DNA from: Flavobacteriaceae bacterium
GTDB taxonomy: Bacteria > Bacteroidota > Bacteroidia > Flavobacteriales > Flavobacteriaceae
Direction: 5' to 3'
NCBI GenBank assembly: GCA_016763715.1
Contig: JAESTG010000110.1
Location: 1-7,255, forward strand
DNA: 7,255 nt
Shown: positions 3,144-7,214 of the stretch, piece by piece
How positions within the stretch are numbered: the first letter of the stretch is position 1
How the letters are laid out: every line of letters begins with the position of its first letter
The notes under the pieces: model-generated
The model's database searches: none
Seen by the model: only the letters and a program-made list of their open reading frames with translations
Told to the model about the DNA's origin: nothing
Position numbers and translations under genes: made by a program

Positions 3144-3172
3144 GTAGTCTTCCATAATTTAATTGATTACAA

Positions 3173-3181
3173 GTTATGTGT
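3173..3181 (+). repeat. Left flank of 9-bp inverted repeat bounding the TAC module
   Basis: GTTATGTGT is the exact reverse complement of ACACATAAC at 4632-4640. Its first seven bases, GTTATGT, differ at one position from the integron core GTTRRRY. It lies 29 nt after the stop of the upstream gene and 132 nt before the toxin start. A 9-bp match could be chance in AT-rich DNA, so a boundary role is an inference. Confidence 0.35.
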
Positions 3182-3201
3182 AATTGCTCTGAAAACAACT
3201 A

Positions 3202-3299
3202 TTTTTAGGTTAATAACAATGTTAACTAAAAATAAAATTAAACGAATTTATTCTAATTTAGGTTCGCTACTTTTATAAAATTCTATTAAAGTTTAGTTA
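3202..3299. promoter_or_regulatory. Candidate operator region of the toxin-antitoxin-chaperone operon
   Basis: TTTTTAGGTTAA (3202-3213) and TTAACTAAAAA (3222-3232) form an inverted repeat with one bulged base around an 8-nt loop. Related copies follow in the same leader: TTTAGGTT (3257-3264) and TTTAGTTA (3292-3299), the last ending 13 nt before the toxin ATG. XRE-type antitoxins usually repress their own operon through such repeats, so these are the best operator candidates. The first hairpin could instead, or also, terminate the upstream gene. No convincing TTG/TAnnTTTG promoter pair was found here; TACTTTTA at 3268-3275 is only a partial -7 match. Confidence 0.4.
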
Positions 3300-3312
3300 G
3301 AGCTTAACAAAA

Positions 3313-3699
3313 ATGTCTAAATTTGCATTAAAGAAAATAAAAACAATTAAAGGAAATCAATCTTTCTATGACCTAGAAATAAATGGAGTTGGTCAGTTTG
3401 ATTCTTTTTCTAAAGAGGCTGCAGTTCAATATGAGTCTGAACTATTGACTCTAAATGCAAGGATGGATTTAGTTGCAAATCTCGTACGTTTACCAAAACA
3501 AAAATTTAAGGATATAACCCCTGTTAAAGAACAAGTAAAGGAATATGAGTTTAAAACAAGGCACTTAAGACTATATGTCACTCATATTGAAAAAACAGGC
3601 AAAGTCGTTATTTTAGGAGGATATAAGAATACCCAGAAAAAAGATTTTCGTAGGTTTCGAAGTTTAAAAAAGCAATATCTAAAGACGTTAAAAAAATGA
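3313..3699 (+). CDS. RelE/HigB-like toxin of a toxin-antitoxin-chaperone module
   Basis: Small, very basic protein of 128 aa, probably a ribosome-dependent mRNA endonuclease of the RelE/ParE/HigB (Gp49-like) fold. The recognisable part is residues 76-124: 'KEYEFKTRHLRLYVTHIEK' followed by 'GKVVILGGYKNTQKKDFRR', which matches the family pattern of an ELR-like strand, a strand around a Tyr, a 'g.ivlL.gf.KkTqk' strand and a C-terminal helix rich in Lys/Arg. Candidate active-site residues are R83, R86, K105, K109-K110 and R113-R116. Residues 1-60 are less typical and hold a predicted helix (about 34-58). The gene is first in its operon and its TGA overlaps the ATG of the HTH gene (ATGA), the toxin-first order of HigBA systems. 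The fold call rests on remembered family patterns. A non-toxic RelE relative is the main alternative. Confidence 0.7.
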   Translation: MSKFALKKIKTIKGNQSFYDLEINGVGQFDSFSKEAAVQYESELLTLNARMDLVANLVRLPKQKFKDITPVKEQVKEYEFKTRHLRLYVTHIEKTGKVVILGGYKNTQKKDFRRFRSLKKQYLKTLKK

Positions 3700-4148
3700 A
3701 AACAAGGGAAGAGTTATTAAGGAGTAAAGAATATTGGTTAGAAAAAATCCAAAATACTTTATTTAATGAGCTCGAAGATTACATCGAGAACAAAGGGATA
3801 AATAAAACGGCATTTGCAAAAGAACTTGGTGTTTCTAAAAGCTATTTATCTCAAATTCTTAATGGAAATTTTGACCATAAGCTTAGTAAACTTATTGAAT
3901 TGAGTCTTGCGATTAATAAAATTCCTATGATTAATTTCATTGAGGTAAACAAGTGTCTAACTTTAGACAAACTTGATAGATTAGCATTAATTGAGACATA
4001 TGACATTAATATAAATATTAAGTTTAATTATTCTTATAAAAAGATAATTGAGAAATCTCCTAAAAAAAGCTCATTTGATAAAATTATTCAGGAGTATGGA
4101 ATTTTGAAAACGAAAAATGTAAGCACTAAAAGCCTATATCTAGCATAA
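3696..4148 (+). CDS. XRE-family HTH antitoxin with C-terminal tail (putative chaperone-addicted)
   Basis: Protein of 150 aa, the probable DNA-binding antitoxin and autorepressor. Residues 1-30 are a helical lead-in (SKEYWLEKIQNTLFNELEDYI) common in Bacteroidota XRE proteins. Residues 34-80 are a Cro/C1-type helix-turn-helix: 'NKTAFAKELGVSKSYLSQIL' is helix 2-turn-helix 3, followed by 'NFDHKLSKLIELSLAINKIP'. The remaining ~65 residues have no recognised domain. They are Lys/Ile/Asn-rich and end in hydrophobic 'SLYLA'. A tail after the HTH is where chaperone-addiction (ChAD) sequences lie in TAC antitoxins. Translation is probably coupled to the toxin by the ATGA overlap and to the next gene by a 2-nt gap. 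The HTH call is firm; the antitoxin role is inferred from the context. Confidence 0.82.
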   Translation: MKTREELLRSKEYWLEKIQNTLFNELEDYIENKGINKTAFAKELGVSKSYLSQILNGNFDHKLSKLIELSLAINKIPMINFIEVNKCLTLDKLDRLALIETYDININIKFNYSYKKIIEKSPKKSSFDKIIQEYGILKTKNVSTKSLYLA

Positions 4149-4150
4149 TT

Positions 4151-4621
4151 ATGGATTTTGAAATTCAAATTAAAAATATTAAAGAAAAAGAATTCAGATA
4201 CTCTGCACACAATCTCAATTCTATAAACGATAAACATCTTTCGTTGGGATTTAAATTAGGTTTTAAAGTAAACCCTAAAAAGAATTGTTTTACAATAAAA
4301 CTTGTGGTAATTTATAACTATGATAATCCTTCAGAGGAAGGAGAACAATTAGAGTTATTGTATTTCAGTATAGCGACTAAATTTAAAATAAAGAACCTAA
4401 AAAAGATTATTAGAAAAGAAGAGAACGATGACAATAAATTTGAAATGCCAGACGCAATTATGATTACCATGGTTGGTGCGGCAATTTCAACAATCCGAGG
4501 AATGATGGTTTACAAATTATCAGGAACTCTATTATCTGAGTACTATTTACCATTGATTAATATTCCAGATTTTCTTGATATAAAAAGTAGTCAAAATGTT
4601 AATGAAGATTCTGCTAACTAA
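4151..4621 (+). CDS. SecB-like chaperone, third component of the TAC module
   Basis: Protein of 156 aa with the layout of the SecB superfamily. Residues 2-85 are alternating beta-strands ('SLGFKLGFKVN', 'CFTIKLVVIYNY', 'LLYFSIATKFKIKNL'), with an acidic loop at 58-67. A segment beginning 'MPDAIMITMVGAAISTIRGMMVYKL' (99-123) corresponds to the SecB helix region, and 'YYLPLINIPDFL' (131-142) to the conserved 'fP.ln...l' segment, which in E. coli SecB is FPQLNLAPVNF. The length is close to E. coli SecB (155 aa). In TAC systems such as M. tuberculosis Rv1957 the SecB-like protein binds the antitoxin, prevents its aggregation and degradation, and allows it to neutralise the toxin. Its position 2 nt after the HTH gene supports that role. 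A general export SecB is the alternative, less likely next to a toxin-antitoxin pair. The assignment is by pattern, not database search. Confidence 0.75.
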   Translation: MDFEIQIKNIKEKEFRYSAHNLNSINDKHLSLGFKLGFKVNPKKNCFTIKLVVIYNYDNPSEEGEQLELLYFSIATKFKIKNLKKIIRKEENDDNKFEMPDAIMITMVGAAISTIRGMMVYKLSGTLLSEYYLPLINIPDFLDIKSSQNVNEDSAN

Positions 4622-4631
4622 AATTCGCAAA

Positions 4632-4640
4632 ACACATAAC
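4632..4640 (-). repeat. Right flank of 9-bp inverted repeat bounding the TAC module
   Basis: ACACATAAC is the reverse complement of GTTATGTGT at 3173-3181. It starts 11 nt after the stop of the SecB-like gene, and ACATAAC is one mismatch from the integron core RYYYAAC. It is followed by GGATATGTATACGAAGCC, which contains further short palindromes (GTATAC at 4647-4652 and CCATTATGG at 4657-4665). No terminator with a T-run is evident between the convergent SecB-like and menB genes. Confidence 0.35.
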
Positions 4641-4677
4641 GGATATGTATACGAAGCCATTATGGTTTAAGAGTTTC

Positions 4678-5516
4678 CTACGGCAACCACTTCTTCTCAA
4701 AATTTGGTTTCCGTTTTTCTAAGAAAGCATCTCTCCCCTCTTTGGCTTCGTCGGTCATATATGCCAATCGGGTAGCTTCACCAGCAAAAATCTGCTGACC
4801 AACCATGCCATCGTCGGTAAGGTTCATGGCGAATTTTAGCATTTTTATGGAAGTTGGTGATTTGGCCAATATTTCATGGGCCCATTCGTAAGCCGTTTGC
4901 TCTAAATCTTCGTGTGGTACTACCGCATTGACCATTCCCATTTCGAAAGCTTCTTGTGCGCTGTAATTTCTTCCGAGGAAAAAAATCTCACGAGCCTTTT
5001 TCTGGCCAACCATTTTAGCGAGATATGCACTTCCGTAGCCTCATCAAAGCTAGTCACATCGGCATCAGTTTGTTTAAAAATGGCGTGTTCCTTACTCGCC
5101 AGCGTCATATCACAAACCACATGCAAACTATGTCCACCACCAACAGCCCAACCTGGCACCACGCAAATAACAGCCTTTGGCATAAAACGAATCATGCGCT
5201 GTAAATCAAGAATGTTCAATCGATGATACCCGTCTTCGCCTACATAGCCTTGGTGACCTCTTACTTTTTGATCTCCACCACTGCAAAAACTATAAACACC
5301 GTCCTTGGATGAAGGGCCTTCAGCAGAAAGCAAGATAACCCCAATACTTGTATCTTCCTGCGCATCATGAAAGGCATCCAAAAGTTCGGATGTCGTTTTT
5401 GGACGAAAGGCATTGCGAACATCTGGTCTATTAAAAGCCACTCTAGCTACTCCGTTACTCTTTTTATAGGTGATATCGGTATATTCTTTGGCAGTTTTCC
5501 AGTTAGGTGTGTTCAT
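4678..5516 (-). pseudogene. menB: 1,4-dihydroxy-2-naphthoyl-CoA synthase (MenB), interrupted by a single-base frameshift
   Basis: Crotonase-fold enzyme that closes the second ring of the menaquinone precursor, turning o-succinylbenzoyl-CoA into DHNA-CoA. The N-terminal part (5516 down to about 5043) shows NRPDVRNAFRP (29-39), CSGGDQKVRG (78-87), GWAVGGGHSLHVVCD (122-136) and QTDADVTSFD (149-158). The next codons should read GGYGSAYLAKMVGQKKARE, but this continues only in another frame (about 5042 down to 4678), ending RKPNFEKKWLP. The coding strand has GATGAGGCTACGG where GATGGAGGCTACGG is expected, so one G is missing (a C on the plus strand near 5042). With it restored the protein is 279 aa, a normal MenB length. 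Asp151 sits where E. coli MenB has Gly156, so this is the bicarbonate-independent form. Because menaquinone is usually the only respiratory quinone in this group, a sequencing error is more likely than a true pseudogene. Confidence 0.93.
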
Positions 5517-6773: not shown

Positions 6774-7214
6774 ATGAAACGCATATTATTCATATTGCTA
6801 TTACTCCCCGCTCTCGTAATGGGGCAATACGATTTTGAAACTCGTTACTTCACCATGACCGATGAAAGCTTGCCTGAAATAAGCTCGTTTGACATCAATT
6901 TTGGTGAAAATCTGACTTTTGAAAAAGTGAGTTTCTATAATTATAGTAAGGTCACTGTTAAAAATTACTACCAACCCGTAGACATGATGTCGGCATTAGA
7001 GACGCAAACTTCGTTATTGGAAGCTCCAAATGTTAATATTCCAAAACTCAATCAAAAGGAATTTGGATTCTCATTTTCAGTAAACGGAAACAACTCCCGA
7101 GAGGGAACTTTAAATTATGGTATCCGAAATAACGTTTACAAAGAGTCTAGAAGTGTTTTCTTCTGTGCTCCATCCTCAAATTATTACCCAACCAAAAGAA
7201 GGTCGAGATATTAG
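6774..7214 (+). CDS. Small exported protein of unknown function
   Basis: Protein of 146 aa that I do not recognise. Residues 1-17 are a clear signal peptide (MKRILFILLLLPALVMG, then Q). The mature part is rich in Phe, Tyr, Asn and Ser, with short alternating strands ('FDINFGENLTFEKVSFYNYSKVTV', 'KEFGFSFSVNG'), suggesting a beta-rich periplasmic or outer-membrane-associated protein. The last ~22 residues change character, with a lone Cys and a basic 'TKRRSRY' end. The downstream +1 frame is also open from 7117 to 7239 with a protein-like composition, so the 3' end could be frameshifted. The gene lies 43 nt after the C1 peptidase on the same strand and may be co-transcribed with it. The reading frame is well supported up to about residue 112; the true C-terminus is uncertain. 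Confidence 0.65.
   Translation: MKRILFILLLLPALVMGQYDFETRYFTMTDESLPEISSFDINFGENLTFEKVSFYNYSKVTVKNYYQPVDMMSALETQTSLLEAPNVNIPKLNQKEFGFSFSVNGNNSREGTLNYGIRNNVYKESRSVFFCAPSSNYYPTKRRSRY

Follow-up and report, generated by a model that had tools for sequence, protein, structure and literature searches.

A probable HigBA-type toxin-antitoxin-chaperone locus in a Flavobacteriaceae bacterium and its relatives in Bacteroidota

Introduction

Toxin-antitoxin-chaperone (TAC) modules have been described in Mycobacterium tuberculosis and Escherichia coli. In the M. tuberculosis module HigB1-HigA1-Rv1957, termed stress-responsive in paper titles, residues W108, R110 and Y114 of the antitoxin HigA1 are assigned to the chaperone addiction domain (ChAD) (PMC6377645), and ChADs are reported to be variable, without significant similarity between TACs (PMC5105189). 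In E. coli, CmdTAC and MqsRAC protect against phages (PMC9519451, PMC11618068) and HigBAC is activated by the major tail protein of phage lambda (PMC11980606). In CmdTAC, whose toxin CmdT is an mRNA ADP-ribosyltransferase, newly made capsid protein of phage T4 captures the chaperone, and ClpP degrades the antitoxin (PMC11618068). Here we describe three adjacent genes from a Flavobacteriaceae bacterium that in all likelihood form a TAC module. They occupy positions 3313 to 4621 of a stretch of 7,255 nucleotides (nt) (assembly GCA_016763715.1, contig JAESTG010000110.1, forward strand), which as a whole is called the window below.

The HigBA pair of Streptococcus pneumoniae is not known to have a chaperone partner. 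Its structures (6af3/6af4) are deposited as those of a toxin-antitoxin module. As regards the chaperones, SecB outside the alpha-, beta- and gamma-proteobacteria is reported to be mostly associated with toxin-antitoxin genes (44 of 70), and solitary SecB is given as the apparent origin of the TAC chaperones (PMC4257090). Nine SecBs of Bacteroidetes have been placed in a tree (PMC4361572), and more than half of the systems surveyed in PMC9519451 are stated to occur also in phyla including Bacteroidetes. A literature search found no paper describing a TAC in Bacteroidota, and the distribution figure of PMC4257090 may include the phylum.

Organization of the Locus

An earlier note on this DNA, made from its letters, had proposed a TAC module with three coupled genes in the order toxin, antitoxin, chaperone. 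The listing of open reading frames (ORFs) confirmed this arrangement (128, 150 and 156 amino acids (aa), all on the plus strand), together with the ATGA overlap in which the toxin stop TGA (3697-3699) meets the antitoxin ATG (3696-3698), and the 2-nt gap between the antitoxin stop (4146-4148) and the chaperone ATG (4151). Given this overlap and gap, the three genes are read as one operon. Toxin, antitoxin and chaperone thus stand adjacent in an operon-like unit, both by their spacing and by the recurrence of the triplet in related genomes. In 2000 single-base shuffles of positions 3144-4677 the longest ORF on the plus strand had 121 aa, none reaching 128, and each of the three proteins has database relatives; the reading frames are thus more than a chance effect. 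The absence of a SecB fold in the third protein, or of a RelE fold in the first together with harmlessness when expressed alone, had been named in the note as grounds for giving up the proposal; structure prediction gave a RelE/HigB (BECR) fold for the 128-aa protein and a SecB fold for the 156-aa protein. The features of the locus are as follows:

3144..3312, no strand assigned: leader, 21.9% guanine plus cytosine (GC); promoter and operator expected, none convincingly identified
3313..3699, plus strand: toxin gene, 128 aa, predicted RelE/HigB fold; evidence from ORF, family, fold and alignment
3696..4148, plus strand: antitoxin gene, 150 aa; evidence from ORF, helix-turn-helix (HTH) and family
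3774..3917, plus strand: HTH_3 domain (Pfam), antitoxin residues 27-74
3948..4145, plus strand: antitoxin C-terminal tail, residues 85-150, proposed ChAD-like region; boundary from the alignment, role inferred
4151..4621, plus strand: SecB-like chaperone gene, 156 aa; evidence from PDC-M64C match, fold and relatives

The gene order is the same as in HigB1-HigA1-Rv1957 of M. tuberculosis, with about 15% identity in structural alignments. A catalogued counterpart is PDC-M64, a candidate defence system modelled in PADLOC. The window chaperone clearly matches its model PDC-M64C (E 5.6e-16), while the window toxin (6e-4) and HTH (4e-4) match weakly and their relatives strongly; the window toxin differs in belonging to a smaller subfamily. 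Taking these matches together with those of the relatives found in the census below, each position of the triplet has its PDC-M64 models, which makes PDC-M64 recognisable as a putative TAC. A literature search for PDC-M64 by name found no paper, and a broader search returned mostly noise.

The Toxin

The RelE-like strand GKVVILGGYKNTQKK, pointed out in the earlier note, was located at toxin residues 96-110. The toxin has 160 database relatives, and 120 listed of these 161 proteins, the window toxin included, were aligned. Its catalytic-type residues are K81, R86, K105 and Q108; position 81 is K in 111 of the 120 sequences and R in the other 9, R86 is kept in 119 and K105 in all 120. From their spacing, K81, R86 and K105 would be equivalent to K54, R61 and R81 of RelE. 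The toxin scores 28.9 bits against the NCBIfam model TIGR02683 (RelE/ParE family toxin), whose curated cut-off is 62.85, and is therefore not filed under that family; its other family matches are likewise sub-threshold. A sequence search against the PDB gave one irrelevant match (E 2), and plasmid records held no relatives of the toxin. Relatives of both toxin and antitoxin carry the names Flavobacterium, Flavobacteriaceae and Bacteroidetes; like the Por secretion tail encoded in a neighbouring gene, these names point to a host within the Bacteroidota.

The Antitoxin and Its Tail

The HTH motif claimed for the second gene was recovered as PF01381 (E 2e-7), scoring 31.4 bits where the cut-off is 23, and similarity to the HigA model TIGR02607 is weak and sub-threshold (6.6e-4). 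Beyond the HTH part, as delimited by alignment, the antitoxin has a tail of 66 residues; among its 84 database relatives the tails vary in length and sequence.

Tails were compared in modules found through toxin-family matches (1e-10 or better) in two genome sets, 400 from one order and 399 from one family. This yielded 11 genomes, to which were added the window and three metagenome triples, the latter pieced together from contigs of equal length. Toxin, antitoxin and chaperone lie side by side in 9 of the 11 (two of these toxins being at contig ends); in the other two (L113 and L115) toxin and antitoxin are present, and neither the profile nor a reading of the downstream ORFs found a chaperone. 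The tails measure 49-84 residues in all 13 modules with a chaperone, against 32 and 41 in these two modules without one, the start of the L115 antitoxin being unsure. On few cases, this is the pattern that chaperone addiction would predict.

Mean identity over the 78 pairs of the 13 modules is 43.9% for the toxin, 50.1% for the HTH, 26.1% for the tail and 29.7% for the chaperone. Tail and chaperone thus look faster-changing than toxin and HTH, the tail value being near what unrelated short sequences may give.

The SecB-Like Chaperone

The two SecB-like segments named in the earlier note, ISTIRGMMV and YYLPLIN, correspond to chaperone residues 112-120 and 131-137. The protein has five database relatives besides itself; an alignment of 29 chaperones, part of those fetched, was used for the family. 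One of these 29 matched PD-T4-9_C (9.3e-6), the chaperone model of CmdTAC (PD-T4-9), a system that shares the TAC logic and has a toxin which, unlike that of the window, is not of RelE fold. No chaperone relative was confirmed in viral contigs, by pattern-based scans, or in phage records, and plasmid records held one. A Ski2 beta-barrel identity, suggested by a Pfam match below cut-off (E 0.025), was rejected in favour of SecB.

Related Triplets in Bacteroidota

The census covered 395 genomes, drawn from the phylum to which a Hymenobacter genome belongs and thus from Bacteroidota, and 14 control genomes. With PDC-M64C as query, at a threshold of 0.001, matches were found at 86 places in 77 of the 395 genomes and in none of the 14 controls; these counts may be low, since some genomes yielded more candidates at first look than went on to scoring. 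The window chaperone as query matched in 37 of the 395. Two places (L104 and L106) were without an in-frame ORF and were left out, and the remaining 84 were classified. At 50 of them an antitoxin-type HTH lies directly upstream, and at 48 of these, in 45 genomes, it is preceded by a gene of at least 90 aa. At three further places (L072, L086 and L094) the HTH overlaps an over-extended chaperone ORF and the upstream ORF has 121-168 aa, which brings the 48 strict triplets to 51 places in 48 genomes. In the strict set, 45 of the 48 gaps between antitoxin and chaperone measure at most 20 nt, counting overlaps, and 47 of the 48 between toxin and antitoxin at most 30 nt. Examples are found on the mobilizable plasmid pHsw1 of Hymenobacter swuensis and in Hymenobacter cyanobacteriorum.

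Among the first genes of the 48 triplets, 38 match the PDC-M64 model PDLC04756 and 29 PDLC04752; two match Pfam HigB_toxin and two PD-Lambda-2_A, and no NCBIfam model was matched at 0.001, so some first genes remain unclassified. The chaperone is thus joined to different first genes, L011 and L073 being among the triplets that show this. In genome G100 (L108, 2372-8078) a hemC-hemD fusion and hemB flank a related TAC, which looks like a single insertion into a heme gene cluster.

Related triplets are therefore common in the sampled Bacteroidota. The earlier note had argued for rarity, on the ground that TACs are described mainly in actinobacteria and proteobacteria; this argument proved wrong, since triplets occur in at least 45 of the 395 genomes and PADLOC already models them. 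Its description of a Bacteroidota TAC as little-described is perhaps fair for print, where the literature search found no paper. The window's own toxin subfamily, present in 8 of the 395 genomes at 1e-5 with one clearly close match (a count that may likewise be low), is rarer than PDC-M64-type triplets overall.

Solitary Chaperones

At 31 of the 84 classified places the chaperone has no antitoxin-type HTH upstream. Together with the chaperone-less pairs L113 and L115, these solitary chaperones would suit another explanation of the window, namely a two-component HigBA pair beside an independent SecB-like chaperone of general or export function, with an antitoxin not under chaperone control. We regard this as improbable, given that the chaperone follows toxin and antitoxin at the same tight spacing at at least 48 places, that the two shortest tails belong to the chaperone-less antitoxins, and that the window sequence, in a tree built from 96 chaperones, groups with those of the three metagenome TACs and L112 (5 rows, 98/83), all of them TAC.

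This tree is unrooted and its bootstrap had not settled. The solitary rows are clustered in it, with 7 changes where shuffled labels gave 28.1 on average, and 28 of them form one clade (100/100). This clade lies within one of 40 rows (100/100), the remaining 12 being TAC. L072, L086 and L094 were wrongly labelled solitary, all three lying outside the 28-row clade; L094 and L100 have very long branches, so that their placement may be wrong or they may not be related at all. A divergent upstream gene is common to 26 of the 28 clade members (e.g., L024, L052, L076, L099 and L103) and is MurB in the one checked (MurB_C, 2.1e-25). Because of this shared neighbour, the solitary chaperone of the clade is a vertically kept locus. 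The five of the 28 that were scanned against Pfam at 0.1 gave no match, and the clade could possibly represent either a TAC chaperone that was domesticated or a SecB so far not recognised as such. The change may have gone either way, from TAC to solitary gene by domestication or from solitary gene to TAC by recruitment. The first course would run counter to the published view, which derives TAC chaperones from solitary SecB.

The closest sequence to the window chaperone among the 395 genomes (L029 / L107, 4989-5471, 34% identity) has no toxin or antitoxin adjacent and follows an alanine dehydrogenase-like gene, named by eye.

Genomic Setting

The three genes have 26.3-29.7% GC, as compared with 36.3-44.0% in the other genes measured. 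Together with the low GC of the leader, this suggests horizontal acquisition of the module. In the leader, inverted repeats are short and AT-rich and none stood out as an operator; promoter-like sites number 13, about equal to the 9.3 (standard deviation 2.9) of shuffled sequences. No terminator-like site was found, and a search of the whole window for Rfam families at gathering score and for tRNAs found none.

According to Pfam, the neighbours comprise genes for an asparagine synthase, a papain-like peptidase and a protein of LVIVD repeats that ends in a Por secretion tail (PF18962), and, on the other strand, an enoyl-CoA hydratase family gene. The last ORF (6774-7214, plus strand, 146 aa) begins, as judged by eye, like a signal peptide and matches no Pfam family. 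The enoyl-CoA hydratase family gene (4678-5516, minus strand) is split into overlapping frames (4678-5013 and 4920-5516), owing to a frameshift or a sequence error. Were this a sign of regional decay, the module itself might be decayed or inactive in this genome; such a state is highly improbable, since all three frames are open at full length and the toxin keeps the family-invariant residues.

Proposed Mechanism and Role

The three genes very likely form a HigBA-type TAC with a chaperone-guarded antitoxin and a RelE-fold toxin. In the resting state the SecB-like chaperone, which is probably tetrameric, would bind the C-terminal tail of the antitoxin, aid its folding and shield it from proteolysis, while the antitoxin would neutralise the toxin and probably repress the operon via its HTH. 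The trigger would come when the chaperone is drawn off. The most plausible cause is a phage structural protein just made in the cell, and other folding stress is a possible one. The antitoxin would then be lost and the toxin would cleave mRNA in the ribosomal A site, with arrest of translation and growth. The gene order and coupling, the predicted folds, the catalytic-type residues, the recurring triplet and, on few cases, the association of tail and chaperone form the basis for this scheme in the window; chaperone dependence, proteolysis, mRNA cleavage and the phage trigger are inferred from characterised TACs.

Several observations weigh against this reading. A Foldseek search with the toxin model gave no match at E 0.001 or better. 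The chaperone model is built on 7 sequences and reaches a template modelling (TM) score of about 0.5, the other four models being lower, and no PDB chain was matched by the chaperone, either as a single sequence or as a profile. Pfam SecB (PF02556) was matched neither by the window chaperone at E 1 nor by 29 relatives at E 0.1, a miss that has no bearing on TAC membership because 33 TAC chaperones are reported absent from PF02556 (PMC4257090). As to the antitoxin, the ChAD motif of M. tuberculosis is not visible in the window tail, which has no evident counterpart of W108, R110 and Y114 and no tryptophan; the tail test includes only two chaperone-less cases, and one TAC antitoxin in the wider census has only 111 aa. 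Moreover, none of the six flanking ORFs matched a PADLOC model at 0.001, the window thus being without another defence gene.

This solitary position, in a low-GC, apparently acquired insertion among ordinary genes, would also be compatible with a TAC that serves mainly in stress response or gene maintenance (addiction), and the related modules in the heme cluster and on the mobilizable Hymenobacter plasmid, as well as the stress-responsive label of the M. tuberculosis TAC, point the same way. We give this alternative appreciable weight while holding it to be the less probable one, considering the phage protection by CmdTAC and MqsRAC, the activation of HigBAC by a lambda tail protein and the filing of the module's relatives as a candidate defence system in PADLOC. 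By analogy with these systems, phage defence would be, by a modest margin, the more probable main role of the module.

Significance

The kind of system is already known, and the window adds to it a complete HigB-type TAC from Bacteroidota. A wider picture can be put forward as speculation. Chaperone-guarded switches, PDC-M64 and its kin, would form an extensive and mostly unmapped radiation in Bacteroidota. Their toxin and HTH half, changing slowly, would be tied to a sensor half (tail and chaperone) that changes fast and is the part to encounter phage proteins. In one lineage the chaperone would have parted from the switch and been kept by vertical descent as a solitary gene next to murB. The PDC-M64 candidate system gains a likely mechanism. 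Modules with and without a chaperone, and with dissimilar tails, offer material on how antitoxins become chaperone-dependent and on which phage proteins bring about their release.
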